Below are positions 209-22,379 of a stretch of 64,000 bases of DNA, piece by piece. Each line of letters opens with the position of its first letter. Position 1 is the stretch's first letter. Source of the stretch: Arabidopsis thaliana (Eukaryota; Streptophyta; Magnoliopsida; Brassicales; Brassicaceae); assembly GCF_000001735.4 (NCBI RefSeq), contig NC_003074.8, positions 13,454,101-13,518,100 of the forward strand, written 5' to 3'. A program made the position numbers and the translations under genes. The notes beneath the pieces are model-generated. The model was not told where the DNA came from and made no database searches. It saw only the letters and a program-made list of their open reading frames with translations.

Positions 209-550
209 ATGGATTAAGAGAGTGAAATCCTTACATTGCCTGAACAGATCTATAGAGAAGGTGAAAAATCTATTGCACTGGGAACCGTTCAACAATACTC
301 AGATTGGAATTTAGTTAGTAAAGTAGAGGAAGCTTTAGGCGAGAGTTTATTTCAGAAGATTAGAAGTTTGTTTCTTGGTCCTCTAGTTGAATTGGGACCA
401 AGAATGAAGGCTAAGAAGGGAATCAGATTTTCTGAAAAAAAATTCACTATCTTATGCAGCAGAGAGTGAAAACTAAAGGATCAACTCTTTGGTTTAGAGT
501 TGATTCTAAACCAATCTGTTTCTCCTTGAGAGAGTTCTACCTCACAACAG

Positions 551-1340
551 GTAATAAAGTTTTACAATCGTTTTTAAAGCTTAATTAACTGTCGTAGAAT
601 GATTTACAAGGCATTTGCAAAACTGTTTGCATAGTTTACAATCGTTTTTAAAGCATAAGTAAGTGTCATAGATAATTTACAAGGGATTTTAAAAGCTTTT
701 AAAAGGGGTTTACTTGATTAACAATCGTTTAAGAAGAATAAGTTAGTGGCAGAGAATGATTTATAAGGGATTTTAAAAGCTTGTAAAAGTGTTTAACTTG
801 ATTCACAATTGTTAAAAGTATATGTAAGTGGCATAACGAAATATTTACAAGGTATTTTAAAAGGATTTTCAAAGACGTTTTAAACAGGCTTTTACAAAGA
901 TTTTAAAAAGGTAAATTATTGGAATTACTATTAAAATTACGTGTAAAATTTGATAGTAATTTTAGTAAACGACTTACAAGACATTTTAAAAGCGTAAAGC
1001 GTTGCAAAAAAATTAAAAAGGGTATACATGTTTGCAATCGGGTTTAAAGGATAAGAAAGTGATAAATAATGATTTACAAGGGATTTTAAAAGTTTTTAAA
1101 AGGGGTTTACTTGATTAACAATCGTTTAAGAATCATAAGTTAGTGGCAGAGAATGATTTACAAGGGAATTTAAAAGCTTGTAAAAGTGTTTAACTTGATT
1201 TACAATCGTGAAAAGTATATGTAAGTGGCATAACGAAAGATTTACAAGGTATTTTAAAAGGATTTAAACAGACGTTTTAAACAGGATTTTACAAGAGATT
1301 TTAGAAGGTAAAATATTAGAATAACCTTCAAAATTACTTG
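551..1340. repeat. Motif array in intron 1 of gene A (left part)
   Basis: Many imperfect copies of TTTACAAGGGATTTTAAAA and TTTACAATCGTTTTTAAA, separated by short linkers such as TAAGTAAGTGTCATAG. Blocks near 580-860 and 1040-1280 are near duplicates of each other. There is no coding capacity. Arrays of the same motif occupy the other noncoding parts of elements A and B. Confidence 0.85.
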
Positions 1341-1445
1341 TAAAAGTTTGATAGTAATTTTAACAAACGAGAGTAATAACACGACACAATGAAGGAAAAA
1401 TTAAAAAACCCAACAATATTCAATTCTCTGGAGATAAAGATATAT

Positions 1446-4159
1446 CTAAATTGCAGCAACACAAGTTGATTTGTTGTGACCCGACTGACCACACCTACTG
1501 CATTTGTGTAATTTTGGTTTTGGCTGAGACCTTCCATGCTCCCAAACAGAAGGTATCCTCTTTTTCTTCCATCTGCCACTAGGTACACGAGTAGAAGGTG
1601 GCAGACAAATAACTTCACTAACAGTTTCTGGAATCTCCCAATATTCCATATCACTATTTGGGTGAATGCTCTCTGAATATGCTTGACGCCACCTGTAAAT
1701 TACATCGATGTAAACTGAGATTAAAACCACATAAACAGAGATAAAAACACAAAAAGAGATATTAAAACCTTTAAAAATGCCTGTAAAGTTGTGAAGAATA
1801 GAGATAAAACCTGTAAGTAGAATGAAACTCGTCAACAAACATGTTTTCTTTGAGATTGATATGTTTAGTAGAAGCAGTTCCATGTGTGCAAGGAAATTTA
1901 TCAATATCAAACATATAGCATGTGCAAGTCCTTTTGTCCAGATTAACCAAATGCGTTTTGGTATCTCCTTTTACCTCAAACTCTTCTTGATTAACTTGAC
2001 AAACCTCAAGCCATCGTGTTGAAGTATCATATGACGCTTTCATTTTCTTCCCTACATTTATAGTAACAGCAGACGGATGTTGACTACTTTCTTCACGTCG
2101 CTCATTAAACCATCTTGTCATAATAGATCTGATTGACTCAAATAGGGAAACAATCGGATACTCGCGGTTCTGTTTCAACAAGGCATTAACAGATTCAGCT
2201 AGATTAGATGTCATGATGTTGTACCGATTTGAAGGAGAATAAGCTCGAGACCATTTCCTAACATCTACCTCCCAAAGATATTGTGCTAACTTTTTATCAC
2301 TACTAGTGATTTCCCAGAACAAAGAATCAAATTTTGTCTTCGTGTAGACTCTAGAAGCCGCGTAGTAAACTGGAATAAGTGAAAGTCCAAGTTTTTTTGC
2401 AAATGAAAAGTGCAAAGTCCATGATGAGCAAGTGGATAATTCTCTGAAAGTCCGCTTGCAATAGAAGCAGCTCGGTCAGACACAAAAACTAAATCCTTCT
2501 CATCAGGGATTATATTCAGCAAACACTTCAAAAACCAGTCCTATGACGCATCATTTTCAGAGTCATCTATTGCAAAAGCAATAGGATACAAATTAAAATT
2601 TCCATCCTGAGCTGAGGCACCAAGCAAAGTCCCTTAAACTTTGATGTCAGATGGGCACCATCAATAGATATGACTTTTCTCATCAACTTATAACCTCTAA
2701 TTGAAGCACCAAAAGCCAGAAACGCATACTTCAACTTATTAGCAGACTCTTTTTTGAAAAAGTGATAGAACCTGGATTCGTCACTTGTACCATGTGGAAC
2801 CACCTCGGCAAAACCTCAAAACTATCATCAGGTAAACCCCTCGCAAGTTCTGCTGCATGTTCTTGAACTCTCCAAGCCTTCGAATAATTGATCCCAACTC
2901 CATGATCTTTTCTAAATATTTCCATCAGCTGTTTAGGTCTGAGGGGAAGCTTTCCTCCTTCAAAATGGTTACTTATCAATCTTCCTAATGTCCTTGCAGA
3001 TGCTTGACGATGACTAACATTCCTTAATGAAGAGTCACAACTGTGATGACTAACATACTTCCGAATAACATAACTCTCGGATCCACCAGCCCTAGTTGCA
3101 CGTAGTCTCCAACTACAGTTTTCATCAATACAATGAAGAACATACCTCGTGAGATCTGATTTCACTGTATGAAACTCAAAGTTGTGCTTCACTGCAAACA
3201 TCCGCAACGTGAATACCATTTCATCTTTGTCTTTCAAAAATGTTCTAATAAACAAAGAATCATCATCACTTAGACCAGTTGAAAACGCAGAACTAGAATA
3301 CTGTTGATCAAGAATACTAGATGTTTCAGATACACACGCCTCAATAATCCTAGAGGTTAACCTTGGCTGCCAAAATAAAAAGCTTACCTCAAACATCAAT
3401 CTATCTTAAATAATGATTTTACAAGGAATTTTAAAAGGGGTTTAAAAACGTTAATAATGATTTTACAAGATTTTTTAAAAGGATTAGTACCTGAGTAATA
3501 GATGCAGAATGAGAAGCAAAGGATTTGAAGTCGTCTCAGCCTGTAATAAACACAATCACTGACTTAATAATGATTTTACAAGGATTTTTAAAAGAGGTTT
3601 AAAAACGTTAATAATGATTTTACAAGGATTTTTAAAAGGGGTCTAAAAACGTTAGTAATGATTTTACAAGGATTTTTAAAATAATTAGTACATGAGCAGT
3701 AGGGACATAATGAGAAACAAAAGGATTTGAAGTAGTCTCAGCCTGTAATAAGCACAATCACTAACTTAATAATGATTTTACAAGGATTTTTAAAATTATA
3801 ACACAAGAAAGTTATTGAAAAACCTGCTCAACTGTCACAGAAATTTGCTCTACAGTCACACATAACTGAAGCAATCCTCCACTCTGTGAGAATTTGTGCA
3901 TAAAAGTTGCAAGCTGTCTATCTTTTCTAATATAAAGAGGATGAGATTGTATGGTTGTAGACGTGGAGACTAGCTTGTAACTAAGCTTCAAAGAATTGGT
4001 TGAACTATCTATTTGAAAATCCTCTACAAGAATATCCACCAATGCGTGATAGGTAATGTGCTCATCAATGAGCACTAAAGAAGCTCCCAATTCAATGTCT
4101 AATTCAAATTCCCAAGTCATATTGTTTGTCAACTTCCAGAAGCCAAAAACGGAATACAA
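1446..4159 (-). pseudogene. mudrA-type MULE transposase A
   Basis: Transposase of a Mutator-like element, read right to left. A first exon (3812-4159) begins near MYSVFGFWKLTNNMTWEFEL. Two small AETTSNP exons follow near 3690-3748 and 3490-3543. The MuDR N-terminal and linker region spans 3399-2731. The MULE transposase domain follows, with SIDGAHL carrying the first catalytic Asp, SDRAAS carrying the second, and HHGLCTFHLQ. A SWIM zinc finger is present near 1880-1930 (CTCYMFDIDKFPCTH), and a last exon to 1446 ends in a CCHC knuckle (CSRCGQSGHNKSTC). A base missing near 2634 relative to copy B breaks the frame, and another break lies near 2400-2420. It lies entirely within intron 1 of the Ulp1-like gene, on the opposite strand. 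The family call is firm; activity is unlikely. Confidence 0.85.
3400..3800. repeat. Motif array in 5' introns of transposase A
   Basis: Repeated AATGATTTTACAAGGA followed by TTTTTAAAAGGGG and GTTTAAAAACGTTA, interleaved with two small transposase exons that both encode AETTSNP. Each exon-intron unit is itself duplicated, so the array probably grew by tandem duplication of an exon with its intron. The equivalent in copy B is at 12990-13400. Confidence 0.75.
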
Positions 4160-4239
4160 TTCTAGCCTTATAACCTAATAAGATAAATAACAACAAAATC
4201 AACACCCACAAAACACTGTCACTACAGATAGAAGCATGG

Positions 4240-4860
4240 TTTACAAATAGTTTTAAAGTGTAAGTAAGCGGCATAGAATAATTTACAAAGGATTTTAAAA
4301 GCTTTAAAAAGTGGTTAACATGGTTTACAAATCGTTTTAAAGCGTAAGTAAGCGGCATAAAATAATTTACAAGGGATTTTAAAATCTTAAAGAAGTGTTA
4401 AACACGATTTACAATCGTTTTAAAAAGCATAAGTAAGTGTCATAAAACGATTTACAAGGGATTTTAGAAGTATTTGCATGGTTTACAATCGTTTTTAAAA
4501 CATAAGTAAGTGGCATAGAATAATTTACAAGGGATTTTAAAATCTTTTCTAAGGGTTAAACATGATTTACAATCGTTTTTTAAGCATAAGTAAGTGGAAT
4601 AAAATGATTTACAAGGGATTTTAAAAGCTTTTAGAAGGGTTAAACATGATTTACAATCGTTTTTAAAGCATAAGTAAGTGTCATAGAATGATTTACAAGG
4701 AATTTTAAAAGTGTTTGCATGGTTTACAATCGTTTTTAAAGCATAAGTAAGTGGCATCGAATGATTTATAAGGGATTTTAAAAGCTTTTTAAAGTGTTAA
4801 ACATGATTTACAATCGTTTTTAAAGTATTTACTATAAAACCTGTAATAATAGTCTCTACA
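4240..4860. repeat. Motif array of roughly 80-bp composite units, right part of intron 1
   Basis: About seven head-to-tail units of 73-86 bp. Each has TTTACAATCGTTTTTAAA, then a linker close to GCATAAGTAAGTGGCATAG, then TTTACAAGGGATTTTAAAA, then an AAGTGTTAAACAT-like tail. On the minus strand the units make spurious peptides with a repeated KSFYxTYLCFKNDCKSC pattern. Unit lengths are not all multiples of three, so I do not call these genes. Confidence 0.85.
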
Positions 4861-7239
4861 TTGTCTTTTGTTCTTACAGAAATTCAATGTGAACCTGTTC
4901 ATAGGGAACTTCGACGAAAGGGGAAAGATCCTGTAAAAGAACCATACTTTTGGGCTCGTGAAGGATTCTATACTCTTGGTGATCTCGAAGATCGATTGTT
5001 TTTAAAACCTAAGGAAGGTGAACCTGCTGTTGAAGATGAAGAAAAGCTGTGTCTTGCTGCAGTAGTGTTGACTGAAGGAATTCTTTTCACACCATATGTA
5101 AAAGAGAGGATACCCATGTCAAGATTGCAGCATGCTTCAGATTTTGAGATGTACACAGCCCAACCGTGGGGTAAAGAACCATTCAGTGTTCTATCAAATT
5201 CAATTCTGAGAATGGACGAGAAAACTTGGTCAAAGCGAGAAATATGATCTGAGAGGATTTGGACTCGCGCTAACAATATGGGTGTTGAGCGAAGTTCCAG
5301 CATTTGGTGCAGCATATGGAGTTAGAGATAAGGAATTCCAATCTGAATATCCATTGATATTGAAGTGGAAAAGCACTACTACTCCAGAGTTTTTCAAGGT
5401 CGTAAACCTTGTAAATTATGTTTCAGAGGTTAGCTTTTGTCTATTTACAGAATTCTTAAAAGGTATTTTAGAATGGTTTTGAGATTTGAAGTTCTGCTTT
5501 CTCAAGATTTGTAATGTTATTGTATCTTCGCAGATGGAGGTGAATACAATTATTGGAAACCTAGAAGACTCAAAGTCTTTAGTTCCTGATTTCCACACAG
5601 ACGACACAGAATTCCAACAGATTTTGGGACTTGTTAAGATGGGCTACAGATTGAAGAAAACTGAATGGAATACAAGATGCGTTGATGTTTGTGCTGCCCT
5701 TGAAGAAGTAGGTCAAAACAAAATCAATAACAAAATATCTGATAGCGAGAAGCTTGACAGGATTTTGACAATCCTTGAAGATCTTAACAAGAGAGTCGAG
5801 CTGATTGAGAGTTTTTTGGACATTAGAATGGAGGAAAAGAATAATTAGAGATCTGAGGAAGACGAAGAAAGAAAACAAGAAGATGAAGGACTAGAAAGAC
5901 AACCAGAGGTAATTGTAAATCTTTCTTTAAAAGCTATTTGAAAGGAAAGGTTTTACAATGTATTTTAAAGGTTAAATACGTAATAAACCTTTACAATGTA
6001 CTCTTTTTTTTTGCAGGCTGAAGAAGAAGGAGGACTAGAAAGAAAAGCAGAGGTAATTGAAAATCTTTACAAGCTATTTTAAAGGTCTACTAATTATATT
6101 AGCGATTGACTTATTGTTTTTATTTTGTTGCAGAATGACAATGAATCATTTGAAGATTCAATCCGAGAGCCAAACACACAGTATGGGAGCTATCCGGGTG
6201 ATGATGAAAACACCCAACGTGATGTTGGTGATGAAGTAGCTGAAGAATCATCAAAACTACAGTAATCTTATATCTCTAAAAGTCTTACAAAAATGATTAG
6301 TATCCTTTTTATAATTTTACATTCTGTTTTTTTTTCAAGGATAAGTCTCCTACTCTACGATCCTCTACAGCAAATTTCAATATTTTGTCTGAAGAAAGTC
6401 TGGATGTTCAAAAGGATAAGAAGAGAGTTAGCAGAGGAAGAAATGAGGTTAGCATTTAAAAAAACTTTGTATTATCTTATAATGTTTTTTTCAAATCTTT
6501 AAAAAGTTTATCTTTCATGCAATTTCAGAACAAGAGAGTTAAACCAAGTGTTCATGCTGAGGATAATCTTAAAACAAGAAAACAGGTTAGTATTTGCGAC
6601 GGTACTGTTTTTAAAATTTGTCAATTGTCTTGTTATGATATTTACAAGGAATTTTAAAAGTACTTTTAATTGGTGTTTTTTACTATTCTAGGTGCCGAGA
6701 AAGAGGCAGAAACAAGTTGATAGTGCTGATGTTGATGTTCCAACAAGGAAAGAGGTTAGTATCTAATTTATTATGATTTTTAAAATTTTGTTTACAAGGT
6801 ATTTTAAACATCTGTTTTTTTATTCTTTTTGATAGGCACAAGGTAAGAAAAGGAAAATTATTGGCAATGATGGTGATAACGCTGATAATGATGGTGACAA
6901 TGATGATAATCATCCCGCTCCGCAAAGAAAGAGTAAGCGGGGTACGGTTCCTTCCATTCATACACAAGCACCTTTCACAGCTGAGAAGAAGAAGCATCCA
7001 ATTTTGCATCCATTTGCGAAAGTTGATTCCACAAGACTTGAGAAATTGGCTGAATGGAAGAAGTCAAGGAAAAACAAGTGAGTTTTGTTAGTAAGATAGT
7101 GAGTTTTTTTAAAAATAAAACATTCATTGTTGACTGTTTTGTTGTTGTAGGCCACTATCAATCGCGGGAAATATTATAGATACAAAGTGGTTTACAACCC
7201 TAGAGACGCCAGGGAAAGCAATAACAACAACGGTATGTC

Positions 7240-7610
7240 TAAAAATCCTTGTAAAATTGGTAACGCATGATTTACATATAGTTTTTAAAGCATCATTAAG
7301 TGGTTTACAAGGGATTTTAAAAGGGGTTACATGGTTTATAAACAATTTTAAAAGATTAGAAAGTGGTAAAGAATGATTTACAAGGTATTTAAAAAAGGAT
7401 TTACATGACTTGCAATCATTTTTAACGGATTAGAAAGTGGTAAGGATTGATTTACTAGGGATTTTAAAAGCTATTAATAAGGGTTTAATTGATTAACAAT
7501 CGTTTTAGAAGCGGAACTTAGTGGCATAGAATGATTTACAAGGTATTTTAAAAAGGGTTTGCATTTTTTACAATCGTTTTTAAAGGGGTATTCTAATATG
7601 ATAATTTTTA
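7240..7610. repeat. Motif array in a late intron of gene A
   Basis: Intron between the short exon ending near 7231 and the Ulp1-domain exon at 7627. It holds GATTTACAAGGTATTT, GGTTTACATG and TTTACAATCGTTTTTAAA variants with linkers such as TTAGAAAGTGGTAA. The flanking exons have none. Confidence 0.8.
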
Positions 7611-8318
7611 TTTTTGTTGTGTTTAGCATGTTGATGCAGCTTTGGAGTTGATGAAAACGAGGAAGGAAAGCAATCCAGAATTATTCAAAAACAAAACAGT
7701 TGTATTTGTTGGATCGTCTTTCTTAAATGCGATTGATGAGTCATACATGGAGTTTTTGGATGATAAAGAGGGATTTCAGTTTCAATCTGAAGAAATCAGT
7801 AAGCTGGTAATAGAGGAAGAAACCAAGTGCATATTGACTCCTTTCTGTATCAAAGGAAAATGCTGGGTTGCCTTGCTAATCCACTTGGAACAGAAGACAG
7901 TTTGTATATGGGAATGTGCAGCTTCTTATTTAACAGAAGAAGTCAAGAAAAAATATGTTGTTGCCTACTCTATAGCTATGCCATACATTGTTCGGAACAT
8001 CCTCAAAAAAGAAGACATGGATGTCTCTCCATTTAGCATCAAAGTCCTGACCACTTTTCCTTAGGTAACTTCTTTAAATATATCATAGTCTTAACTTCCG
8101 TAAGTCCTGACTTCTTTAACTTCTTTGCTCAAGTAATTCTTTTGGTTTTTGGTGGTAGGCTCCTAGAAATGAAGAGTCTGGTATCTATGTGCTGAAGTTT
8201 ATGGAATGCTACTCAATGTATACCAGCCATTCAAACCTTGAAGGGAACATAATTCAAAACGTAAGAAATAAATTGGCTGCTGACATCTTCACCGAATTAG
8301 AGTCAGTCAGTTTGTAGA

Positions 8319-9030
8319 AGTAGAAGACTTCTAATCAAAAAGTAGTGGAGTATAAGATAGATTTAGCAGCTTTTGTTTCTTATTTCATAAAACTTTGTCA
8401 TTTGAATATTTTATGAACATCTGTATGGAACAAAATTTATGAAGTTTATTTAGTTCAACTCCTGTTTAACAAAATTACTTTATAATGGTTGTTTGGGTTA
8501 ACAAGTGCTTTGATTTGAATGGAAAAGGACTTTAAACATGCTTTTAAACAGAGGTTTTTAACGATATACAAGCTGTTTTAAAAGGATTTTAAAAGTGTTG
8601 AAAAAGCTGCAACAGCGGTTATTAGGAAAAAATTTACAACCGTTTTTAAAATGATTTACAACCGTTTTTAAAAGAGAATTTCAACCGTTTTTAAAAGAGA
8701 ATTTCAACCGTTTTTAAAGAAATTTACAATCGTTTTTAAAAGAATTTTAAAAGTGTTGAAAAAGCTGCAGTAGCTGCTAGTATGAAAAGATTTACAACTG
8801 TTTTTAAAATAATTTACAACCGTTTTTAAAGAGATTTACAACCGTTTATGATTTGAATGGAAAAGACTTTAAAATAACAGGTTTTTTAACGATTTACAAG
8901 CTGTTTTAAAAGCGTTTTAAAAGTGTTGAAAAAGCTGCAGTAGCTGTTATTATGAAAAGATTTACAACCGTTTTTAAAAGAGAATTTCAACCGTTGAAAA
9001 AGTTACAGTAATGTTAAACATTGTATCTGT
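8319..9030. repeat. 3' flank of gene A with a third motif dialect
   Basis: After an AT-rich 3' untranslated stretch (8319-8510) there is an array of TTTACAACCGTTTTTAAA and AATTTCAACCGTTTTTAA, with the linker GTGTTGAAAAAGCTGCA repeated three times (near 8596, 8750 and 8920). The CCG variant dominates here, whereas TCG and GGG variants dominate inside the gene. No ORF. Confidence 0.8.
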
Positions 9031-9987
9031 TACTAATTGGGCCTAGGCCAGTTATTTAGAAAAACAAACGGTTTTAGTAAAAAAAAAACTAAAAGCCAAA
9101 AAAACACTAAAGCCCAAAAATTCACTATAACCCAAAAACAAAAAAGGAAGGGAACCATGGAAAGACAAAAAAGGTAACAAAAAAAAGAAAAGAAAAAAAA
9201 GAAGAGAAACTGTCGTCTTCGTCTTCTTCCTTTCAACAATCTGAAGAAAATCCGATTATCCAGCAAAACGGAAGCAATTGAAGGTAACAAATTGACGAAA
9301 TTGAAGTTTAACATTTGGGTTTGTTCGATTTTGTTTATTTTTGCCGAATCTCTTTTTTGTTCTAGCATTTCTAGGGTTTTCGGTTGAAAACGAAACAAGT
9401 AAAATAGATTGATATTTGAGATTTTGAAGGAGGGTTAGAAATTGTTTTTTGATAGATTCTGTTTTAAAGTTTGATATTTGGGTTTTAAAAACCTTCAAAG
9501 AAGATTTTGAATGCCGATTAACTTCTCTGTTGTAGCAATTTCAAAGGTTTTTCGTTTTGAAACTACACCAGTAAATAGATTGATGTTTGGGTTTGTGTTT
9601 TAATTTATAGATCCTCACTTAATTTATGGGTTACCAGTTGATTGAAGTTGGTTTGAAAAAGGGTTTTTTGTTTCTATTTTGGCGGCTGTGTTCTTTGAAA
9701 AGGATTTAAATTTTGTTTTTGAAATGGTTTCAAAACGGTCTTTAAAAAGGATTATGGAGTAATGACTGTGTTTTACAAGGGTTTTTAAAGTCTTGAAACG
9801 ACTTGTAATGACTTTGAAAAATGGTTTTACAAGGGGTTTTAAAGTCCTTTAAACGACTTGTAATGACTATGTTTATGTTTCGAAAACTACAAATGAATAA
9901 TAGATTTACAAAATGGTTTTTAAAACGATATTCAAAACTGTGTTAATTTAATGACTGTGTTAATGTATTTAATCAGGTTTTGAGAAA
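9031..9987 (+). other. Probable A/B boundary and 5' leader of DUF1985 gene B
   Basis: No coding region. It starts with an A-rich stretch, then a pyrimidine-rich leader. At 9700-9960 there are short versions of the motif (GGTTTTACAAGGGGTTTTAA). An acceptor-like sequence (TTTAATCAGG) lies shortly before the ATG at 9988. I could not identify the terminal repeats or target duplication that would define the A/B border. Confidence 0.45.
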
Positions 9988-11515
9988 ATGAGTACAAAGA
10001 AACTGTACTTCCCTAAAAGACTGTTCCAACCAGGCAGCGAAGTAGATAATATTACAAGGGTATCAAAGCATTCATCTTTCAAAATTGTCTCGACTGTCAG
10101 GGAAGCTTTAGAGCCGATAGAGTTCAACACATTAATGGACACATTCTTGGGTCCTATAGTGGAATTCGCTGAAATGGACTTAGCATTTTCAACCCATATC
10201 GTTCATCATTTACTCCAAAGAAGGATACTAACCAACAATGACGAATTGTGGTTTGTATTTGCTGATCAACCTATGCGATTCTCTCTGAGAGAGTTTATCA
10301 TAACAACAGGACATACAATGGATGATGCATCAGGAAGCAGTCCAAATGTGAAGAGAAAGAAGAAAGAAAAGTGGTGGATAAAAGATAATCAGACTTTGAA
10401 GGGAAAGCAGAAAAAAGATGTGTGGATTGACAAGGAAATGAGTTTTATCGATCTTACATATGTTTTGGAAAAGAGTTCCAAAAACATACAGCCAGAGGAG
10501 AGACTGAGATTGGTGGGTTTGTTACTAGTTGAGGGCATATTGCTAGCTCGATATCCGACTACCAGGGTGCCAATTGAGAATTTGGAGAGAGCTACTGATT
10601 TCGAAAAGTTCTGTAAGATCCATGGGCGCAGATTGTTTACTCATATTTGGTAACTGAAGTGAAGAGAATCGATAATGACTATTTGTTAAGGAAACAATAT
10701 GGTCTATTTGGATTTGTTCAATCAATTCAGATATGGGCATTATCATCGGTTTAGAAGTTGGAAGAAAAGTTTGGCACTAGAGATGAATCATCTAGTGGAA
10801 ATATTCCATTAATTCTCCAATGGAGATCAACATCGTCTCCAAGTGCAAAAGCGATAACAATAATTGCAGATGGTGACAAGGTACATTTTCTTAGCTGTGT
10901 TTTTTTTTTTATGTTTTAAACACTGTTTATAAATAAAGAGTATGTTTTACAATAGTTTTTACAATCAAGTTTTAAGGATTTACAAAAGGTTAAAGGCAAT
11001 TGAAACAATTTACAACGGATTTTAAAAGGTTAATTAAGAATTGTGCATTATTTTTACACAGTTTGGAATTTTGTTTATCTTTGTAGGTTGAAGTGACACC
11101 AATAGTTGGTGTTAATACTCATGAATATGACCACTTGGTTTCACAGAAGAATCCTGAAGACGAGGATCTGTTGGATGTTTTTGATCTTGTGATCAAAGGA
11201 TATAGAATGAGCAAGAAGGGTTGGTGTCAGGGATGGATTCAAGTGGAACAAGGACATCAAGGAAGAATTGATCATGTCTTGAAACCTGCAATTGAAACAG
11301 TGGTGCATCAAAGCAGAAAAAGGAAATCAATGTCATTTGGTGAGAAGGGAAAACTGGTATATGAAAACTGTGAAGTTCTTAAGAAGAAAGTTGGAAGGCT
11401 GGAGGGCTATTTAGGGATCGAAAGAGTTTTTGCCAGTTATACTAGAGAAGAACAAAAAGAAGAGGACGAAGTATCATATGACGCTTTCATTTTACCTCAA
11501 ACTCTTCTTGATTAA
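9988..11515 (+). pseudogene. DUF1985 gene of MULE element B, lacking the Ulp1 domain
   Basis: The first exon opens with [19 protein letters not shown] and reads through the whole DUF1985 region ([20 protein letters not shown], then [20 protein letters not shown]) without the 4.3-kb intron of gene A. A frameshift near 10640 and a TAG near 10750 interrupt it, although homologous residues ([22 protein letters not shown]) continue. A donor near 10880 and acceptor near 11086 lead to a coiled-coil exon ([17 protein letters not shown] onward) like that at 5534 in gene A. It then runs directly into antisense transposase sequence at about 11468, so the acidic exons and protease domain are missing. An intron (10881-11086) carries sparse motif copies. 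Confidence 0.75.
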
Positions 11516-11567
11516 CTTGACAAACCTCAAGCCATCGTGTTGAAGTATCATATGACGCTTTCATTTT
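11468..11567. repeat. 26-bp direct repeat at the DUF1985/transposase junction of element B
   Basis: The same 26 bp, starting GAAGTATCATATGACGC, occurs at 11468-11493 and 11542-11567. In element A it occurs once, inside the transposase near 2021. The left copy marks where the DUF1985 gene was joined to the transposase C-terminal half, so the junction is a rearrangement breakpoint. Confidence 0.85.
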
Positions 11568-11829
11568 CTTTCCTACATTTATAGTAACAGCAGACGGATG
11601 TTGACTACTCTCTTCACATCGCTCATTAAACCATCTTGTCATAATAGATCTGATTGACTCAAATAGGCAAACAATCGGATACTCGCGGTTCTGTTTCAAC
11701 AAGGCATTAACAGATTCAACTAGATTAGATGTCATGATGTTGTACCGATTTGAAGGAGAATAATCTCAAGACCATTTCCTAACATCTACCTCCCAAAGAT
11801 ATTGTGCTAACTTTTTATCACTACTAGTG

Positions 11830-11921
11830 ATTTCCCAGAACAAAGAATCAAATTCTGTCTTCGTGTAAACTCTAGATTTCCCAGAACAAAGAATCAAATT
11901 CTGTCTTCGTGTAAACTCTAG
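11830..11921. repeat. 46-bp perfect tandem duplication in transposase B
   Basis: Two adjacent 46-bp copies (11830-11875 and 11876-11921) beginning ATTTCCCAGAACAAAG. Element A has one copy near 2310. The length is not a multiple of three, so it frameshifts the transposase. Confidence 0.9.
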
Positions 11922-12989
11922 AAGCCGCGTAGTAAACTGGAATAAGTGAAGAACCTCTGAAATGGGTTTCCAAGTTTTTTTGCAAATGAAAAGTGCAAAG
12001 TCCATGATGAGCAAGTGGATAATTCCCTGAAAGTCCGCTTGCAATAGAAGCAGCTCGGTCAGACACAAAAACTAAATCCTGCTCATCAGGGATTATATTC
12101 AGCAAACACTTCAAAAACCAGTCTCATGACGCATCATTTTCAGAGTCAACTATTGCAGAAGCAATAGGATACAAATTAAAATTTCCATCCTGAGCTGAGG
12201 CACCAAGCAAAGTCCCTTTAAACTTTGATGTCAGATGGGCACCATCAATAGATATGACTTTTCTCATCAACTTATAACCTCTAATTGATGCACCAAAAGC
12301 CAGAAACACATACTTAAACTTATTAGCAGACTCTTTTTTGAAAAAAATGATAGAACCTGGGTTCGTCACTTGTACCATGTGGAACCACCTCGGTAAAACC
12401 TCAAAACTATCATCAGGTAAACCCCTCGCAAGTTCTGCTGCATGTTTTTGAACTCTTCAAGCCTTCGAATAATTGATCCCAACTCCATGATCTTTTCTAA
12501 ATATTTCCATCAGCTGTTTAGGTGTGAGGGGAAGCTTTCCTCCTTCAAAAGGGTTACTTATCAATCTTCCTAATGTCCTTGCAGATGCTTGACGATGACT
12601 AACACTCCTTAATGAAGAGTCACAACTGTGATGACTAACATACTTCCGAATAACATAACTCTCAGATCCAGCAGCCCTAGATGCACGTAGTCTCCAACTA
12701 CAGTTTTCATCAATACAATGAAGAACATACCTCGTGAGATCTGATTTCACTGTATGAAACTCAAAGTTGTGCTTCACTACAAACATCCGCAACGTGAAAA
12801 CTATTTCATCTTTGTCTTTGAAAATTTTTCCAATAAACAAAGAATCAGCATCACTTAGACAAGTTTAAAACGCAGAACTAGAATACTGTTGATCAAGAAT
12901 ACTAGATGTTTCAGATACACACGCCTCAATAATCCTAGAGGTTAACCTCGGCCGCCAAAATAAAAAGCTTACCTCAAACATCAATCTAT

Positions 12990-13400
12990 CTTAAATAATG
13001 ATTTTACAAGGATTTTTAAAAGGGGTTTAAAAACGTTAATAATGATTTTACAAGATTTTTTAAAAGGATTAGTACCTGAGTAGTAGATGCAGAATGAGAA
13101 GCAAAAGGATTTGAAGTCGTCTCAGCCTGTAATAAACACAATCACTGACTTAATAATGATTTTACAAGGATTTTTAAAAGGGGTTTAAAAACGTTAATAA
13201 TAATTTTACAAGGATTTTTAAAAGGGGTTTAAAAACGTTAGTAATGATTTTACAAGGATTTTTAAAACGATTAGTACCTGAGCAGTAGGGACAGAATGAG
13301 AAACAAAGGGATTTGAAGTAGCCTCAGCCTGTAATATGCACAATCACTGACTTAATAATGATTTTACAAGGATTTTTAAAATTATAACACCAGAAGGTTA
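12990..13400. repeat. Motif array in 5' introns of transposase B
   Basis: Equivalent of 3400-3800 in element A: AATGATTTTACAAGGA, TTTTTAAAAGGGG and AAAAACGTTA units with two AETTSNP-type small exons between them. Confidence 0.75.
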
Positions 13401-13553
13401 TTGAAAAACTTGCTCAACTGTCACAAAAATTTGCTCTACAGTCAAACATAGCAAAAGCAATCCTCCACTCTGTGAGAATTTGTGCATAAAAGTTGCAAGT
13501 TGTGTATCGTTTATAATATAAAGAGGATGAGATTGTATGGTTGTAGACGTGGA

Positions 13554-13567
13554 GACTAGCTTGTAAC
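13554..13567. repeat. Left target-site duplication of LINE 1
   Basis: GACTAGCTTGTAAC immediately followed by the T-run that is the LINE poly(A) tail read on +. An identical copy lies at 19641-19654. Element A carries the undivided site at about 3968-3981. Confidence 0.95.
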
Positions 13568-13602
13568 TTTTTTTTTTTTGTGCACCTCTTAATTATAATC
13601 AC

Positions 13603-16600
13603 TCAATCAAAGTTTTGAGCATACAATGAAAGGGAATTCTTCGCTAAGGAATCTGCCAACACATTGGCCTCCCTTTTAATGAAACGACAAACAAATAACT
13701 CAAAGGATAGAGAGCTAATTAAAATGTCTGAAATGATGCCATGGATCTCAGATATGAGAATTCCGGCATTGATGGCTTGAATCAGCTGGAGGCAGTCGCT
13801 CTCGATGAGAAGCTGCTTCACATTTGCTTGGGTCGCGGCAGTAACAGTTGCGCGCATCGCTAGCCCTTCTGCCGTAAGAGAAGATGATACATTCAAGCAT
13901 AGAGATGAATGCTCTGACTCCAAACTTGTCTCCTCATGTGCAAACGTCCAGCCTAAACCTGCTGCTCTTAAATCAAGTCTCCAAGCTGCATCAACTTTAC
14001 ACCTAGCTCCACAAGTCGGAAAGATAGGAAGATCAAACCTTGAGATTGGCTCCAACAGGGGATTGATCTGCAGCTTTCCAGTCTGTGCTTCTTGCCACTC
14101 TCTAACATCCTTAACTGCTTTAACCAAAGTTTCCTCGATAGTAAAGATTTTATTGTTAAACACCTGCTGGTTTCTTATTGTCCAGAGGGTCCAAAGGATC
14201 CAGGGAGCCAGCTGCGCCAGTCCTAACCCCACCGGTGGTAAACACGTCTGAGCATGAACAACAAGAAGTCCACCTCTTACATCTTGAAACAATGTCGATT
14301 CCACTCTTCTCTTAAACGGTGCTTGTTGCCAAACAGCAGAAGCAAATGGGCAAGTAAAGAGAACATGAAGCATGGATTCCGGATCATGACACTTACAACA
14401 CGCTGTGTCAATGACAATTTGTCTTGCAGCTAACTGGGTTCCTGTAGGTAGTGCTCCATGAAGGCATTGCCAGAGGAACGTCTTTATCTTTGGCGCAGTC
14501 ACAACGGACAAGACTTCAGCTTTCCAGTTAACCTCCGGTAGCACTCTGGTTTGATTCAGACAGGTCTTGTTTCTAGCAGAATAATACCCAGACTTAGTTG
14601 AATAATTTCCAGAAGGGTGGAGTACCCAAATTCTTCTATCCTCAGCACCTAGCCGGCTGGGTTTTAGCATCTTGATGGTGTCAACATGTTCTGGAAACAA
14701 GGTAAAGATCTTAAGCATATCCCACTCCACAGTCTCTGGTAAGAAAAGCTCATGCACCAATAATTCCTTTGAACTAGAAGGGGCAGGTCCCATCGGTTGC
14801 AACCTTTGGGAATGAGACAGCCAAGGCTCTTGCCAGGCTTTGATGGATTTCCCATTTCCCACTGCCCATCCCAGATTTTGAATCAGGAGATCCCGACCTA
14901 ATAATACGTTTCTCCAGCCATGAGAGGTTGATGATGGACAACTCACTTCCAAGAACGGTTTAGAATGACAGTATTTTCCCAACAACACACGAGCTAGCAG
15001 ACTCTTAGGAGCTTTTAGAATTCGCCAACTTAGCTTGGCAAGAAGTGCTTCATTATAACACTGAACATCTCTGATGCCTAGCCCTCCCTCCTGGTTTACT
15101 CTTGTCATTTTATTCCAAGAAACCCAACACATTCCTCGCTTATCCACTTTTGAATCCCACCAAAACCTTGTCAAAGATGATTGGATTCTCTTACAAAGAG
15201 ACGAAGGAAGCTGAAAACACGACATCGCGTACGTAGGCATAGTAGATAGGACACTTTTGAGCATGGTTAACTTGCCAGCACTTGACAGAAATCTATTAGA
15301 CCAGCTTAGAGCCTTTTGTCTGATCCTGTCCACTATAGAGGTAAAGAGGTCTTTCTTCCTGCGCCCAAAATGCTCTGGCAATCCTAGATACTTGCCCACC
15401 CCACCTTCTTGATTTATTCCAAGAGAGACCATAACTCGCTGTCTCAACTCCGAAGGGGCTTTCCTTGAGAAGGAGACAGAGGATTTTCCCCCATTTATTT
15501 GCTGTCCAGAAGCCAACTCATACTTCTTCAGGATTACTTTTAATTCATTGCAGCTTGAGACATTTGTTTTACAGAAAAACATTGTGTCGTCAGTGAACAA
15601 CAAATGATTAATTCTAGGTCTGCCCATAGCAACTCTAATCCCTTGTAGCTTCCCATTAGACTGAGCCTTTTTGCAGAGACCCGCCCGACAACACCTCACT
15701 ACACAAAATGAAAATGTATGGGGACAAGGGATCACCCTGCCTAATACCTCTTTGCGGTACTACACTCCCTTGGGGGGAACCATTCACCAAGAAGGAGAAA
15801 GAAACGGTGGTCAAACATTCCATAATCCAGCCAATCCAACGCTCATGAAAACCAAGTTGTTGTAGCACACAATTGACAAACTTCCACTCCACTCGGTCAT
15901 ACGCCTTACTCATGTCAGTTTTAACTACCATAGAGCAGTGTTTCTTTGCTCCCGAACTCTTGAGAAACTGAAGCACCTCATGCGTAATCAAAACATTGTC
16001 CGATATCGCTCTTCCCGGGACAAAAGCCGACTGATTCTCAGCCACAATCACAGACAAGATTGGTTGTAACCGGCGTGATAAAACTTTGGAGATTATTTTG
16101 TAGAGCACATTGCACAGTGCAATGGGTCTATAATCTGCCAATTTTCTAGGTCCTTGACCTTTCGGGATAAGACACACGTGAGTTTCGTTGGCCCTACTTG
16201 GCATCTTTCCCGTGACAAAGAAAGCTTGAATTTCCTTAATAATCTCTGGTCCAATCGCCTCCCAGTTGGAGTGGAAAAAACTGGCCGAGAATCCATCGGG
16301 ACCTGGAGCTTTCTCATGATGAATAGCAAACAACGCCTCTTTTATCTCTGTTGGTGAAGGCTCTAAAATCAGCTTTGCGTTAGTGCTCTCGGAGATGCAG
16401 GGAATTAACGCTTCGTTGATTATCTCTACTATTCCATCCTCCTCAGATGCAGAAGAAGCAAACAGCTTATGAAAGTATCCAGCAATCACCGCCACAATCT
16501 GTTCCTCATGAAAGAACTCCTGCCCTGAATCATCTTCTATAACAGCCAAACTGTTTATAGCCTTTCTTCCTCTTGTAGCGGCATGGAAATATCCTGTGTT

Positions 16601-17640
16601 TTTATCTCCAAGGCACAACCACAGCTGCCTACTTCTTTGTTTCCAAAACGCTTCTTCATCCTTATAGGCCTGTTTCAGCTTATCATTGATTTGTTTCAGT
16701 AACAACTCATTTGGAAAAGGACTTACCATTGCCTTTTTCAAATCTGACTTGAACTTCTCAATCTCCACTTGACTATTACGGTGCTTCTATTTATTCCACA
16801 ACACAATCGCTTTTCTCACATTTGAAATGCGGCTTTGAACTGAGAGAGTCTCTTCTTCCTGCCAAGTCTCCTTTACAAGAGTTTTGACTTCTACATTATC
16901 TTTCAATCTTCTGTCATACCTGAAAGATCTTGGCTTCCTCTTCTTAGGTGGTCCAAAATAAGACACCAGCGGTCTATGATCTGAACCTTCAAAATTTAAA
17001 TAGACGCAACGCCCCGAAGGAAACATTTGTGCCCAAAAATTGTTTCCAACTGCTCTATCCAAACGACATTTAACTACATGAGAATGCCTTATTCCTCTTT
17101 ACGAGAAGAAGCTTCCAGAATGCTTAATGTCATACAAGTCACATTCTGAGAGGAAAGATCGGAAGCCCACAAACGTTCCTTCAGCTCTAATAGGTCCTCC
17201 TGACTTCTCTGAGTTATCAACTATATCGTTGAAATCACCGGCTAGGAACCATGGTCCATCTCTTGCCTCTGATAAACTTCTCAACTTACTCCATACCTCC
17301 TTTCTCTTTCCCTGATCTGGTTCGCCATACATAAAGGTTGCAAAGAAGGTTTTTCCTTTGGTAGTAACACAAGCATCAATAAAATTCTCACAAGAAAGAT
17401 TAACCACCAGAGTTACTTCCTGTTTCCAGAAAAGCGCTAGTCCTCCACCTCCATGTCCCTGAGGTGAGACTAGAAAACTGTGGCCATAACCCAAACCATT
17501 GAACTTATTAGTAACATACTCATCATCATTCTTTGTCTCCATGAGGAAGAAGATGTCATGGTCGATCTTTGAACGGATCTCCCTAATGCGATGAACTATC
17601 ATAGGGTTCCCCATCCCTTGGCAGTTCTAACTCGCCACCG
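13603..17640 (-). pseudogene. LINE ORF2: endonuclease, reverse transcriptase, RNase H
   Basis: Domains in order from the right: AP-type endonuclease with FLMETK, AGDFND and SDHRP motifs (17614-16960); reverse transcriptase (16768-15656) with DMSKAYDRVEW and RQGDPLSPY; RT continuation with the catalytic box as FTDD near 15600; a zf-RVT Cys/His region (CCKCHDPESMLHVLFTC, near 14370); and a C-terminal RNase H domain of RVT_3 type with VDAAW, TAEGLA, ESDCLQ and NVLADSLAK as likely acidic positions. Lesions: the Trp of the WNCQG-like start motif is a TAG near 17629, there is a break at 17062-17099, a stop near 16780, and a frameshift near 15660-15735. The protein otherwise spans the usual L1 ORF2 architecture. 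Confidence 0.9.
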
Positions 17641-19430
17641 CTAAGGAAGGAGAGATGACGGACTCCGAAAATCCGTCCCCCTTTGGACTGCATTTCTGGC
17701 TACACTCCCGAAGCCTTGCTGAGGACCTAACGCTGCTCCTGTCCCCATGGATTCAAGGTCCAACCCCCCAGTTTCCAGCTGAAACTCACTAGACTCTCCA
17801 TCACTCCTGAGATTATCCAAAATTAGCTTCCTTCTTGGGGTAATCTGAGCCTGATGCATCTTTCTTCTTTTAGATGAGGCAGCAGCACCTGCAAGTGGGC
17901 TGGGATTTTGCTTCTTCTTTCCTGAGGGTTTCCTAGCAGTAGACCTCTTCTTCACTTTCCTTGGAGCTGCAGGTGCATTTAAGGGGCCTAACCTGAGGGC
18001 CACAGGTATCCGCTCCTGACTTAGAACAATCTCTGTCTCATCCTCATCATGAGGGGCCAGCGGGGCAGAAACCATTGAAGCTCTTACCATATTCTCAGCT
18101 GCTTCTTCAAACTGACTCTTTCTCTTCTTGCCGCGCTCTCTGATGGATCACCGCAGGCAGTATATTGCACCATCACCTCTCGAAGCTCTCCTAGTGCAAC
18201 ATCCATTGCTTCTTGAGGAATAGGTGTTGGGGCTGTGTTACTCAAAGACCGCCTCTCAATTGGTGGTCTCCGGGGCCTAACAGAAGAATCTGCAGCTTCT
18301 TTATCCTCTATGATAGGCTCTCTTCTCACCGACTCAACATGAGAGCTCTCACGTTGATGCGAGATTTCCGGGGAGATGGGCCTTTCCCTATACTCCCACC
18401 TAGACTTATCTCTGGATTTGCTGAGACCCGCTAGCCTTGGGTCCCTTTGGTGATGCCTCCGTGCCTCTTTGGCATTATCAAACGAAGATCTAGGCTGTCC
18501 ATAACGCTGACTGCTAGTCTCTTCGAAACTCCGTCTAACTCTGTAGCTTGAAGCATGCCTCTTATCTCTAGTTAAACCAGTCCTTTCATCACGTCTTCGA
18601 TAATGATCATTTTCCAAACCATGGAACCCTCTGCTCCTAGACTCTGAAGACTTCGAAATCTCTTGTCTTGAGCTAGACTGTGGTGTCCTCTCATCTCCTC
18701 TTGCTTTGGAGTCTTGAGATTCTTTGCTAAACCGGCTCTGGCTTGGGCTTTTCCTCTCACCCAGTCCTTCTTTACTCCCACATTTTGTTTCTTCATGGTC
18801 TAACAATCCACACACAGCACAATGAGACATAAGCTTGTCATAGTTAAGAGTCGCTTCTACCTCCTCACCATCATCGAAATCCAGGATAGAGTTCTTTATG
18901 ATAGGTTGCAGGCCATTGATAACCACTCTCATCCTTGCATAAGTATCAGTGATTTCCGCTTTCTCAAAACGCCCTAATTCCTTGGAAATACTGAATAAAG
19001 TTTCTTCGGACCAGAGATGCATTGGAATCCCCTTGACATAAATCCAGAACGGGATTTGAGATGGAAATGACTTCATTGTAGTTGGTTCCCATCGTTGCAA
19101 AATCACCATCCAATGCGCATAGTGATAGGGTTGATTGTCTAGAACCTTTTGCAGATCCTGCTCAGAAGCGAATTGAAATTGGAATAACCCATTTCCTAAA
19201 TCTGCGCCAACAGGACGGATCACTGTCTTCCACAGATCTGCAAGCACTGGAATGAGAGACCAAACTCTCTGGACTTTGGGATTAGTCATACGCCCAATGA
19301 TTGTCAGAGACAACTTCTTCTTCTGCTCTGAATTATCAAACGCCGGGACTTTAACACGGACCGTACGAGGAGGGAGATTTGGGGGAGCGATTCCTTTGCC
19401 TTTCTCAGAAAACGGAATTCGCGAAGCCAT
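17641..19430 (-). pseudogene. LINE ORF1: gag-like RNA-binding protein
   Basis: Starts at the ATG at 19430 (MASRIPFSEKGKGIAPPN). The N-terminal part resembles DUF4283, the gag-like domain of plant LINEs, and ends in a zinc knuckle CAVCGLLDHEETKC of CX2CX4HX4C form. A long Arg/Ser-rich, probably disordered region follows. A frameshift near 18130 moves the reading frame into a second ORF (18090-17641) with a basic KKRSTARKPSGKKK stretch. Expected role: binding LINE RNA in the retrotransposition particle. It lies upstream of ORF2 with almost no spacer. Confidence 0.85.
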
Positions 19431-19640
19431 AGTTGTGGATTAGTATCACAATACCCAAGCTAAGCAAAACGAACCTTGACGACAACAAATTCGAACTTCT
19501 GAAGCGGGAGACGACCTAGATCTGTAGAAGAAACCTTGCCTCGAAGAGTGTGCCTGAGAGCATTATCGCCGCTCTTTTTTTCTTTTTTTCTGCTTCACAA
19601 TTTTTATTTTTTTTCTCTCTTAATTATTTTTTGTTTCGAT

Positions 19641-19654
19641 GACTAGCTTGTAAC
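19641..19654. repeat. Right target-site duplication of LINE 1
   Basis: GACTAGCTTGTAAC directly at the LINE 5' end; the transposase B exon continues with TAAGCTTCAAAG exactly as in uninterrupted copy A. Confidence 0.95.
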
Positions 19655-19889
19655 TAAGCTTCAAAGAATTGGTTGAACAATCTATTTGAAAATCCTCTAA
19701 AAGAATATCCACCAATGTGTGATAGGTAATGTGCTCATCAATGAGCACTAAAGAAGCTCCCAATTCAATGTCTAATTCAAATTCCCAAGTCATATTGTTT
19801 GTCAACTTCCACAAGCCACACACAGAATACAATTCTGGCATTATAACAACAAAATCAACACCCACAAAACACTGTCACTACAAATAGAA

Positions 19890-20106
19890 GCATGATTTAC
19901 AAATCGTTTTAAAGCGTAAGTAAGCGGAATAGAATAATTTATAAAGGATTTTAAAAGCTTTGAAAAGTGGTTAACATGGTTTACAAATCGTTTTAAAGCG
20001 TAAGTAAGCGACATAAAATAATTTACAAGGGATTTTAAAAGCTTTGAAAAGTGGTTAACATGGTTTACAAATCGTTTTAAAGCGTAAGTAAGTGGCATAG
20101 ATCTAT
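19890..20106. repeat. Motif array 5' of transposase B
   Basis: Composite units with TTTACAAATCGTTTTAAAG, GCGTAAGTAAGCGGAAT and TTTACAAGGGATTTTAAAA; equivalent to 4240-4400 of element A. The array stops abruptly after GTAAGTGGCATAG at 20100. Confidence 0.85.
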
Positions 20107-20460
20107 CATGAAATCATATGTAAAGAGGTAAACACTAAATCAGAACCAAAATCTATCACGAAACAGTATAACGAATTCACATAAGCAAATCTATCAAGAA
20201 ACAGTATAACGAATTCAAAAGGTATTAACGAATTCACATAATCTACCCAAAAATCGAAAGCAAAACAGTATAACAAATTTCAAGGATTTTAGAAACAAAT
20301 TCAATCGTCAAATCTCAAACAAAATTCAAATTCAAAGCTGAAGCAAATGTCAAACTGTCGATTGAATCAGGATTCAAATAACGAATTCACATAAGCAACA
20401 ACAAATATCAAATAAACCAATTCGAAATCTGACATTTAAGCTAACATTACAAATTCAAAC
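20107..20460. repeat. AT-rich spacer with short direct repeats
   Basis: Three or more imperfect copies of GAAACAGTATAACGAATTCA and ATAACGAATTCACATAAG. No ORF. Probably part of the upstream terminal region of MULE B. Confidence 0.5.
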
Positions 20461-20740
20461 CTGGGAAACACAAGAGATTCGACGGCGACACACTTTACTA
20501 CTTCCGACGGCGAAGATGGGATTCGACGGCGACAAACTTCACTATTTCAGACGACGAAGATGGGATTCAACGGCGACAAACTTCACAATTTCCATTGGAG
20601 GAATAACAGAAAGAGATTCGACGGCGACAAACTTCACTATTTCCGACGGCGAAGATGGGATTCGACGGCGACAAACTTCACTATTTCCGACGGCATAGGA
20701 TTCAACGGCGACAAACTTCACAATTTCCGATGGAGGAAGA

Positions 20741-20766
<26 letters not shown>
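20461..20766. repeat. GACGGCGACAAACTTCAC minisatellite and (AG)n tract
   Basis: Five or six imperfect units of about 44-60 bp built on GATTCGACGGCGACAAACTT, CAC(T/A)ATTTC and CGAAGATGGGATT, ending in an (AG)n microsatellite at 20741-20766. The + strand shows spurious repetitive ORFs. Read from the minus strand it would be the 5' leader of transposase B; similar TCTCCGACAAACCTCTTCTT units occur at window bases 1-90. Confidence 0.7.
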
Positions 20767-20771
<5 letters not shown>

Positions 20772-21619
20772 GAATTAGGTCAGAAGTGTGTGTAGCTCAG
20801 TAAGGGTAATTTGGGGATAAAAGTATTAGAAGGGGTAAAAATGAAAATGGAAAAAAGGGTAGAGTTGAAAAAGGGCATTGAGAAAAGGGCATTAGAGTGA
20901 ATTATTCAAGAAAAAAATGAACCAGAACGAGTCTGATAAAAATTTGGTAAGTTACAGTTATTGATTCAAAAATTTAATTTTGTTTTTTTATTTAAAATTA
21001 CGGTTATCATTTATTTAAGTTTTAGTGTTTACCCATTGCACATTGCACCTTAAATAAATGACTCATAAAATCTCTATCCATTGCACATGCTCTAAATGAG
21101 TTATCGACTGTCACGTCATCGATACATAGAAGGGCTATGTTGCAGGAGATTTTTTAGATTGTGGTTTGTATTTATTTGACATGAAGGTTTATTTTGCAAA
21201 AAAAAAAATTTGAGGTTTTTTTTGCACAAAATCCTTATGTTTTTCAACGGAGTTATCAAGTGCCATGTCATCGATATACGGGAGGGTTGTATTGCGGGTG
21301 ACTTTAGAGATGGTGGGGTTGACTTGCATAATTCGGATTTGGAGGGTAAACTTGCAAACGAGATCGACTTGGAGGGTTATTTTGCAGAAAACCCTTTTCA
21401 ATTCTACCATTTTCTATTTGTCATTTTCATTTATACCCTATTTAAATTTTTAATGACCATTTTACCACTATTTGTAAATTATTTTAGGTTAACAAAATAA
21501 ACTATTCCAAAATAAATTTCTCACCAAAATTTTCACGCCAAAATTTTTCGAAAACAATTCCCGCCAAATGTTTTTCGAAAAAAACATTTTTCCTGTAAAT
21601 TTTGTTTATTGGCGGGAAA
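20767..21619. other. Noncoding spacer with an imperfect 150-bp duplication
   Basis: Purine-rich DNA to about 20910 could hold the outer end of MULE B, but no terminal repeat was recognised. A block starting GAGTTATCGACTGTCACGTC (near 21099) recurs imperfectly near 21250. At 21555-21620 an inverted pair TTCCCGCCAAA / TTTATTGGCGGGAA immediately precedes the motif array. The short ORFs here look spurious. Confidence 0.45.
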
Positions 21620-22350
21620 TAGATTTACAAGAGATTTTAAAAGGGTTTAAAAAGATTTACAAGGTATTTTAAAAGAGTGTTAAAAGATTTACAAGAGATT
21701 TTAAAAAGGTTTTAAAAGATTTACAAGGGATTTTAAAGGGCTTTAAAAGATTTACAAAAGTTTTTAAAAAGGTTTTAAAAGATTTAGAAGGGATTTTAAA
21801 AGGGTTTTAAACGATTTACAAGGGATTTTAAAGGGCTTTAAAAGATTTACAAATATTGTTTAATGATTTTTAAAGGTTTTAAAATTGTTTGAAAACGGTT
21901 TTAAAGTATTTACAAGGGATTTTAAAAGGGTTTTAAAAGATTTACAAGCGATCTTAAAAGGGTTTTAAAATATTTAAAAGAGATTTTAAAGGGCTTTATA
22001 AGATTTACAATGGTTTTTTAAAGATTTTAAAACGGTTTATTAATGTGTTTTAAAAGGTTTAAAAGTGTTTTAAAAGATTTACAAGAGATTTTAAAAGGGT
22101 TTTGAAATATTTGCAAGGGATTTTAAAGGGTTTTAAAACATTTATAAAGGTTTTTTAAAGATTTTTTAAAGAATTTTAAAGGGTTTAAAAGTGTTTTAAA
22201 AGATGTATGTACAAGGGTTTTTAAAAGATTTTTAAAGAATTTACAAGAAGATTGTTTAAAAACTCTTGTAAATCTTTTTAAACCCTTTTAAAATCCCTTG
22301 TAAATATTTGAAAACCCTTTTAGAATTTGTTAGAATTGCAAACCCTTTTA
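21620..22350. repeat. Free-standing TTTACAA...TTTTAAAA motif array
   Basis: About 0.7 kb made almost only of GATTTACAAGGGATTTT, AAAAGGGTTTTAAAA and close variants, in + orientation to about 22255. The complementary form (CTTGTAAATC, CCCTTTTAAAATCCC) then takes over to about 22350. No coding sequence and no Ulp1 or transposase exon is attached, so this is either the last remnant of another A/B-type element or an independent satellite-like block. Confidence 0.85.
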
Positions 22351-22354
22351 AAAT

Positions 22355-22379
22355 ACCTTGGTTAGAATTAAACCAAGGT
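22355..22379. repeat. Short inverted repeat
   Basis: ACCTTGGTT at 22355-22363 and AACCAAGGT at 22371-22379 form a perfect 9-bp stem with a 7-base loop at the border between the motif array and the retrotransposon fragment. Confidence 0.7.

Follow-up and report, generated by a model that had tools for sequence, protein, structure and literature searches.

Arrays of a bipartite motif, TTTACAA followed after a spacer of 3–5 bases by TTTTAAAA, run through most noncoding blocks of a Mutator-like element (MULE) in the window analysed here, a 64-kb stretch of the 119,662,809-base Arabidopsis thaliana assembly (C3:13454101–13518100). The motif is restricted to noncoding DNA, keeps to one strand and to a regular spacing, is limited to one family among the loci tested and is present in a nonautonomous element. 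Judging from this anatomy, the arrays are probably (we put the probability at about 0.83) cis-targets of a VANC-type anti-silencing system that belongs to one Arabidopsis family of Ulp1-bearing, Kaonashi-type VANDALs. A DUF1985 protein of the same family would bind arrays of the bipartite site along one face of the helix and remove silencing marks from any copy with enough sites. In this way the element would switch itself and its nonautonomous relatives back on and leave other parts of the genome untouched. Such sites would multiply by tandem duplication, and the arrays would thereby become exchange points between elements.

Systems of this kind are known: in A. thaliana VANC proteins are established agents of sequence-specific anti-silencing, and the present arrays most likely add one more version. 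For a VANDAL family that belongs to neither the VANC21 nor the VANC6 system they supply a target motif that is exact and testable, together with a reference copy that is structurally complete. The more interesting point is the combination of a two-part site with two DUF1985 genes: a site of this kind, with near-helical spacing, bears on how DUF1985 proteins find their targets. Arrays also lie where exchanges gave rise to a mosaic element.

The motif in the window

The first-pass annotation had described the two words as filling the noncoding parts of two elements, MULEs A and B. Both are collinear with a single element type, and on that ground the two-element view was rejected: aligned to a fuller relative at C2:5958500–5976000 (L069+L070, hereafter the reference element), A and B are, on the evidence of this alignment, one 15.5-kb element type, rearranged in the window. 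Coding and noncoding counts are based on an exon map of the window that was drawn by hand after visual inspection of splice sites and reading frames. The labels long interspersed nuclear element (LINE), C and D come from the first-pass annotation or are inferred, the identity of the LINE being taken from the former.

Exact counting gives 82 copies of TTTACAA and 82 of TTTTAAAA in the window. With spacers of 3–6 bases there are 42 bipartite copies on the plus strand, from 676 to 22078 and none further on; with spacers of 3–5, used for the window counts below, there are 41 on the plus strand and 1 on the minus strand. The 7052 bp of noncoding A/B DNA contain 35 on the plus strand and 0 on the minus strand, against none on either strand in 7784 bp of A/B coding DNA, which bears out the proposed halt at exon edges. 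TTTACAA alone has 65 plus-strand and 5 minus-strand copies in the noncoding class, where dinucleotide shuffles average 4.4, and one copy on each strand in the coding class, which contains TTTTAAAA once. Thirty dinucleotide shuffles of each sequence class, scored on the plus strand, yielded no bipartite copy. Bipartite copies are likewise absent from the LINE insert (6071 bp) and from the remaining 42102 bp of the window, in agreement with the claimed absence outside A/B-type DNA; six plus-strand copies and one minus-strand copy lie at 21390–22380.

Every block named in the earlier account has at least one bipartite copy, although the one at 9700–9960 (position 9905) counts only if a 6-base spacer is allowed. 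Copies beyond its list, at 6641 and 11009, lie in short introns. The marked strand bias of the sites is missing from that account. Its wording that the motif occupies all noncoding parts was too strong: terminal stretches of the reference element are without sites, as are 8320–8520 and 20107–20907 of the window, from both of which TTTACAA itself is absent. The motif copies reported at 21620–22350 are indeed present, but 21.4–22.4 kb is a separate, truncated nonautonomous element, a relative of one at about C1:3.826 Mb. The C1 element has motif arrays in both orientations, and both its ends align with those of the reference element (scores of 47 and 59; 300 shuffles reach at most 33 and 34).

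Family limitation, conservation and spacing

Genome-wide, the pattern TTTACAAN4TTTTAAAA has 908 forward and 753 reverse matches (1661 in all), and a reversed control pattern has 5 and 3 (8 in all). The first 100 genome matches listed are all on C1; 3 of them are solitary, 1 at the end of the list is unjudged and the rest stand in groups of at least two. We used 24 of 30 family loci, dropping L039, which is the window, and the overlapping duplicates L053, L054, L056, L057 and L058; these 24 places represent fewer elements because the two DUF1985 exons of one element, from genes 1 and 2, are counted apart. They contain 190 bipartite copies (from 1 to 11 per place), every one on the gene strand and none antisense. 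The matched DUF1985 exons, 11679 of the 83679 bp at these places, hold 0 of the 190 bipartite copies and 1 of 380 gene-strand TTTACAA.

Our comparison set consisted of 30 DUF1985 loci from other families, the best-scoring among 150 listed, each with 1.5 kb on both sides, and the bipartite motif was found at 0/30. It is also absent from the window regions of two other DUF1985 matches (45490–45897 and 56319–56729, presumably C and D). Among the loci tested the motif is restricted to one VANDAL family, as had been claimed. L071 (C1:17045500–17052000), another DUF1985 locus, was tried as a family match at C1:17.05 Mb and rejected, its repeated word being GTACGTACA; several of these repeats lie in apparent introns, and the word may be a target motif of some other VANDAL family. 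That L071 is VANDAL1/VANC1 is our weak guess from numbering. Counting 8-mers de novo, we find TGTACGTA recurring at L032, L034 and L036, and most of the 30 other DUF1985 loci are without a strong repeated word (the exceptions being these three, L033 and L029), a result that may be due to the 1.5-kb limit on the flank covered. L072 (C4:2440500–2447500), a place named VANDAL3 in the accessible text of PMC6297998, has the repeated word ATAACTCAGCC and no bipartite site.

When sites are anchored on TTTACAA, the best 8-bp stretch is located at offset 10–11 in both the reference element and the window. The mean information per position of this second word is 1.29 bits in the reference element (69 sites) and 1.37 bits in the window (67 sites), against medians of 0.33 and 0.35 and best stretches elsewhere of 0.54 and 0.57 bits. 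The second word stays conserved, and variation falls on the spacer and on the remainder of the unit. In the reference element TTTTAAA follows TTTACAA at 3–5 bp in 49 of 64 cases, across 9/9 noncoding blocks examined, with spacers that include GGGA, TCGT, CCGT, CGGA, GAGA and GGAT. Because the second word is the sole well-kept stretch near TTTACAA while spacer and unit drift, the pattern argues for recognition by a protein. Of 238 distances of 9–58 bp between neighbouring half-sites, 216 differ by no more than 2 bp from a multiple of 10.5 bp (44% expected if uniform); for distances of 19–58 bp the figure is 95 of 115 (45% expected).

Tandem Repeats Finder (TRF) resolves the window arrays into units of 42/84, 44, 22/45 and 32 bp, and array size differs between copies (152, 404 and 239 bp with 3, 9 and 4 TTTACAA, in the 3 of 5 copies that were measurable). 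Unit structure and variable length would both suit neutral AT-rich tandem repeats, spread by slippage and gene conversion and surviving only where nothing is encoded; exons would purge such insertions anyway. We regard this as quite unlikely, since blocks of unlike unit length share both words and their orientation despite differing spacers and flanks, 0/190 copies are antisense, the same words stand in a nonautonomous element and two other DUF1985 loci carry other repeated words.

Gene content and place among the VANDALs

The element type carries a DUF1985+Ulp1 gene (gene 1), a second DUF1985 gene (gene 2) and a MULE transposase gene. In the reference element, gene 1, with its DUF1985 region split by a motif-filled intron, is followed by gene 2, a middle tandem array, a DUF1299 repeat exon, an auxilin-like J-domain exon and, on the opposite strand, the transposase gene. 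L070 has DBD_Tnp_Mut, MULE and SWIM domains, and the two transposase copies of the window are 94.6% and 92.2% identical to the L070 region. In the list of DUF1985 matches the second DUF1985 exon has 9 near-complete relatives (89–92% identity), and every one of the 9 is preceded on its strand, at a distance of 5.7 to 12.2 kb, by a different DUF1985 exon. The element ends are GGGAGATTTGC and GTGAATTATTC; among five copies the 9-bp target duplication is exact in two, has 8/9 positions in one and is missing from two (the reference element at C2:5.96 Mb and the window copy).

The exon at L070:3101–3382, between gene 2 and the transposase gene, is like the J domain of auxilin/JAC1 (3ag7, which we take to be JAC1; E=6.3e-07) and has no match in Pfam; it is likely a captured host fragment. 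The DUF1299 repeat exon (E=1.6e-26) lies downstream of gene 2 at L070:2252–2518. VANC proteins are described as having tandem peptide repeats (accessible text of PMC5735166).

The Ulp1 domain of gene 1 in the window (Peptidase_C48, E=2.3e-25 and 5.7e-10) is at 7627–8317; it was assigned to one gene with DUF1985 by collinearity with L069 and splice sites read by eye. It reads GKCWVALLIHLEQKTVCIWECAAS in the window and in L078–L080, and ESGIYVLKF in the window. Because the catalytic His, Asp and Cys appear replaced at what we take to be their canonical positions, the domain is probably a dead protease kept for another role; a search of solved structures with the Ulp1 exon matched no protease.

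The arrays had earlier been likened to VANC targets by analogy. The anatomy fits well, but analogy is the wrong word, as the host is A. thaliana itself, and binding is what we infer. By its sequence the element belongs among the Arabidopsis VANDALs themselves, because of this host, the set of Ulp1, DUF1985 and MULE genes and the A. thaliana protein matches (5 of 21 matches to the gene-2 exon of a family copy are so named, at 84–98%, and one more, a partial match, is at 57%). It has the MULE transposase gene, the target duplication of about 9 bp and the VANC-type DUF1985 gene of a VANDAL, and, as in Kaonashi/KIU, an Ulp1 domain in the DUF1985 gene. Like VANC targets, its arrays are dense in noncoding DNA and free of exons, family-specific and in the same orientation, and made of variable tandem repeats; from the same orientation the nonautonomous element departs, having both.

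VANC21 binds YAGTATTAY, and such short same-strand motifs are dense in introns, spacers and ends (Hosaka 2017); binding was demonstrated by chromatin immunoprecipitation (ChIP) and electrophoretic mobility shift assay (EMSA), according to the accessible text of PMC5735166. The present arrays resemble those of VANC21 and VANDAL21 (Hiun) in being dense, same-strand, tandem, variable and family-specific, in occupying introns and spacers and in sharing an element with a DUF1985 gene. They differ in being known from sequence alone and in their motif: YAGTATTAY occurs twice in the window (34120 and 38187), nowhere in A/B or L069/L070 and as one single copy (L066) among the 30 family loci. The VANC6 system of VANDAL6-7-8-17 has architecture and host in common with ours. 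VANC6 acts on AGTTGTCC/AGTTGTAC, and targets evolve via tandem repeat formation (same text of PMC5735166), whereas these words number 6 in the window, with only 1 within 1–20907, inside the LINE insert, 0 in L069/L070, and single copies at 5/30 family loci, two of which overlap.

Ulp1-bearing VANDALs recognise motifs in their own kind, as stated in the accessible text of PMC13317346, citing Sasaki 2022. The Ulp1-bearing Kaonashi and KIU VANDALs share with our element a DUF1985+Ulp1 gene, a MULE without terminal inverted repeats (non-TIR) and a noncoding motif of its own. The 2022 work of Sasaki is said to cover at least ten such systems in Arabidopsis and to find that motif density and helical periodicity matter, and our motif and family may be listed there already. 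The motif letters are absent from the available text of PMC10342631, and general literature searches were not aimed at motif letters. A search of the literature by gene numbers gave no paper that names the family within VANDAL. VANDAL3 was rejected on the repeated word of L072 and its lack of the bipartite site. We call this identity only unlikely because the VANDAL3 member AT2TE21295 has a large tandem repeat in its middle (accessible text of PMC10342631), resembling the reference element.

The reader of the motif would most likely be the DUF1985+Ulp1 product of gene 1. It is unlikely, in our view, that the two-part site is read by a heteromeric VANC, in which the gene-1 and gene-2 DUF1985 proteins take one half-site each, side by side on one helix face. 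Binding by the transposase (VANA) rather than a DUF1985 protein, at internal loading sites for transposition, would account for a nonautonomous element that retains both ends and arrays; we consider it very improbable, as in the reference element the bipartite copies begin about 950 bp in from the left end and stop about 690 bp short of the right end, leaving empty the zone where a MULE transposase is expected to act, and as the copies sit in introns and spacers. Least probable of all is that the arrays mainly serve the host, as direct repeats feeding small interfering RNA (siRNA) production and silencing by RNA-directed DNA methylation (RdDM): VANC targets do overlap RdDM targets, but the accessible text of PMC10398659, which also covers the VANC1 system, reads this overlap as control of shared regions in opposite directions, and a constant motif with free spacers suits protein recognition better than siRNA matching.

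Several points count against the arrays being targets of a VANC-type protein. The published motifs YAGTATTAY and AGTTGTMC are absent from A/B outside the LINE, and the terminal 690–950 bp are without a bipartite copy. There are two DUF1985 genes, either of which may read the motif, and the predicted structure of the gene-2 DUF1985 (mean pLDDT, predicted local distance difference test, 42.7) is too poor for use. One stop interrupts the Ulp1 exon of the structurally complete reference element, and the window copy is broken at several places. The 30 comparison loci include near-identical copies, hence fewer than 30 families, and repeated words of other families are clear at few loci only. As to spacing, the figures overstate the number of events because tandem duplication makes sites within an array non-independent, and they were judged against a uniform expectation alone. 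The commonest half-site distance is 12 bp (72 cases), within the motif itself, not 10.5 bp, and the period peaks of 15 arrays, homologous pairs included, fall at 10.3–10.6 bp in 9, at 11.2–11.4 bp in 4 and elsewhere in 2.

Rearrangement of the window copy

The features of the window are listed here with strand in brackets.

210–550 (+): first coding exon of gene 1 (DUF1985+Ulp1, VANC/KIU type), with stops; homologous to reference 2301–2645; DUF1985 at L069:2289–2663; edge by eye
551–1370 (+): motif array in which the gene-1 intron array meets the one on the 3' side of the transposase gene; crossover between about 661 and 780
1521–4122 (−): transposase (VANA) copy 1, surrounded by the gene-1 intron array and carrying a further array in an intron; 94.6% to reference 13532–16690
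3400–3800 (+): motif array in the intron of transposase copy 1, 44-bp units; from counts and tandem units
4235–4850 (+): motif array, 42/84-bp units, transposase 5' array joined to gene-1 intron array; from tandem units and alignment to the reference element
4881–8317 (+): rest of gene 1, several motif-bearing introns, Ulp1 (Peptidase_C48) exons 7627–8064 and 8159–8317; from reference alignment and domains, edges by eye
7238–7626 (+): motif array in a gene-1 intron; from motif count and period analysis
8520–9010 (+): motif array separating gene 1 from gene 2, units of 22/45 bp, CCGT the usual spacer; from count, tandem units and period
9700–9960 (+): TTTACAA copies upstream of gene 2, one bipartite with a 6-base spacer; from motif count
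9988–11470 (+): gene 2 (DUF1985, E=1.6e-13), truncated, intron motif copies at 10946–11027; 94.6% to reference 7646–10160
11487–13568 (−): transposase copy 2, resuming at 19641 past the LINE, array at 12990–13400; 92.2% to reference 14331–16322; a deletion joins it to gene 2
13570–19640 (no strand): LINE insert (first-pass label) interrupting the element, no bipartite motif; from reference alignment and motif count
19890–20106 (+): motif array on the 5' side of transposase copy 2, units of 84 bp; the element ends on the right near 20907; from tandem units and reference alignment
21390–22380 (no strand): truncated nonautonomous element, 32-bp motif units, mostly plus strand, inverted at its end; from tandem units, counts and alignment

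Along the window the copy aligns in turn with reference positions 2092–3390, 13532–16690, 2816–6091, 5912–7421 and 7646–10160, and onward with 14331–16322 and, past the LINE, 16308–17315. The first junction, at about 661–780 by best-hit tiles, leads from the gene-1 intron array into the array 3' of the transposase gene, and smaller array duplications follow. The second, near 4246–4350, leads from the array 5' of the transposase gene into the gene-1 intron array; its evidence is a set of overlapping alignments, the tile map having given the first junction only. The flanks of the window copy do not match (left TAGATTGAT, right AAGAAAAAA), as is expected of a composite element; yet the reference element, which is not rearranged in this way, is also without a duplication. 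Both large junctions of part A lie inside motif arrays and a third junction (11470/11487) lies outside them. Because both large junctions of this mosaic part fall in arrays, the arrays seem, from the alignments, to act as exchange points between elements.

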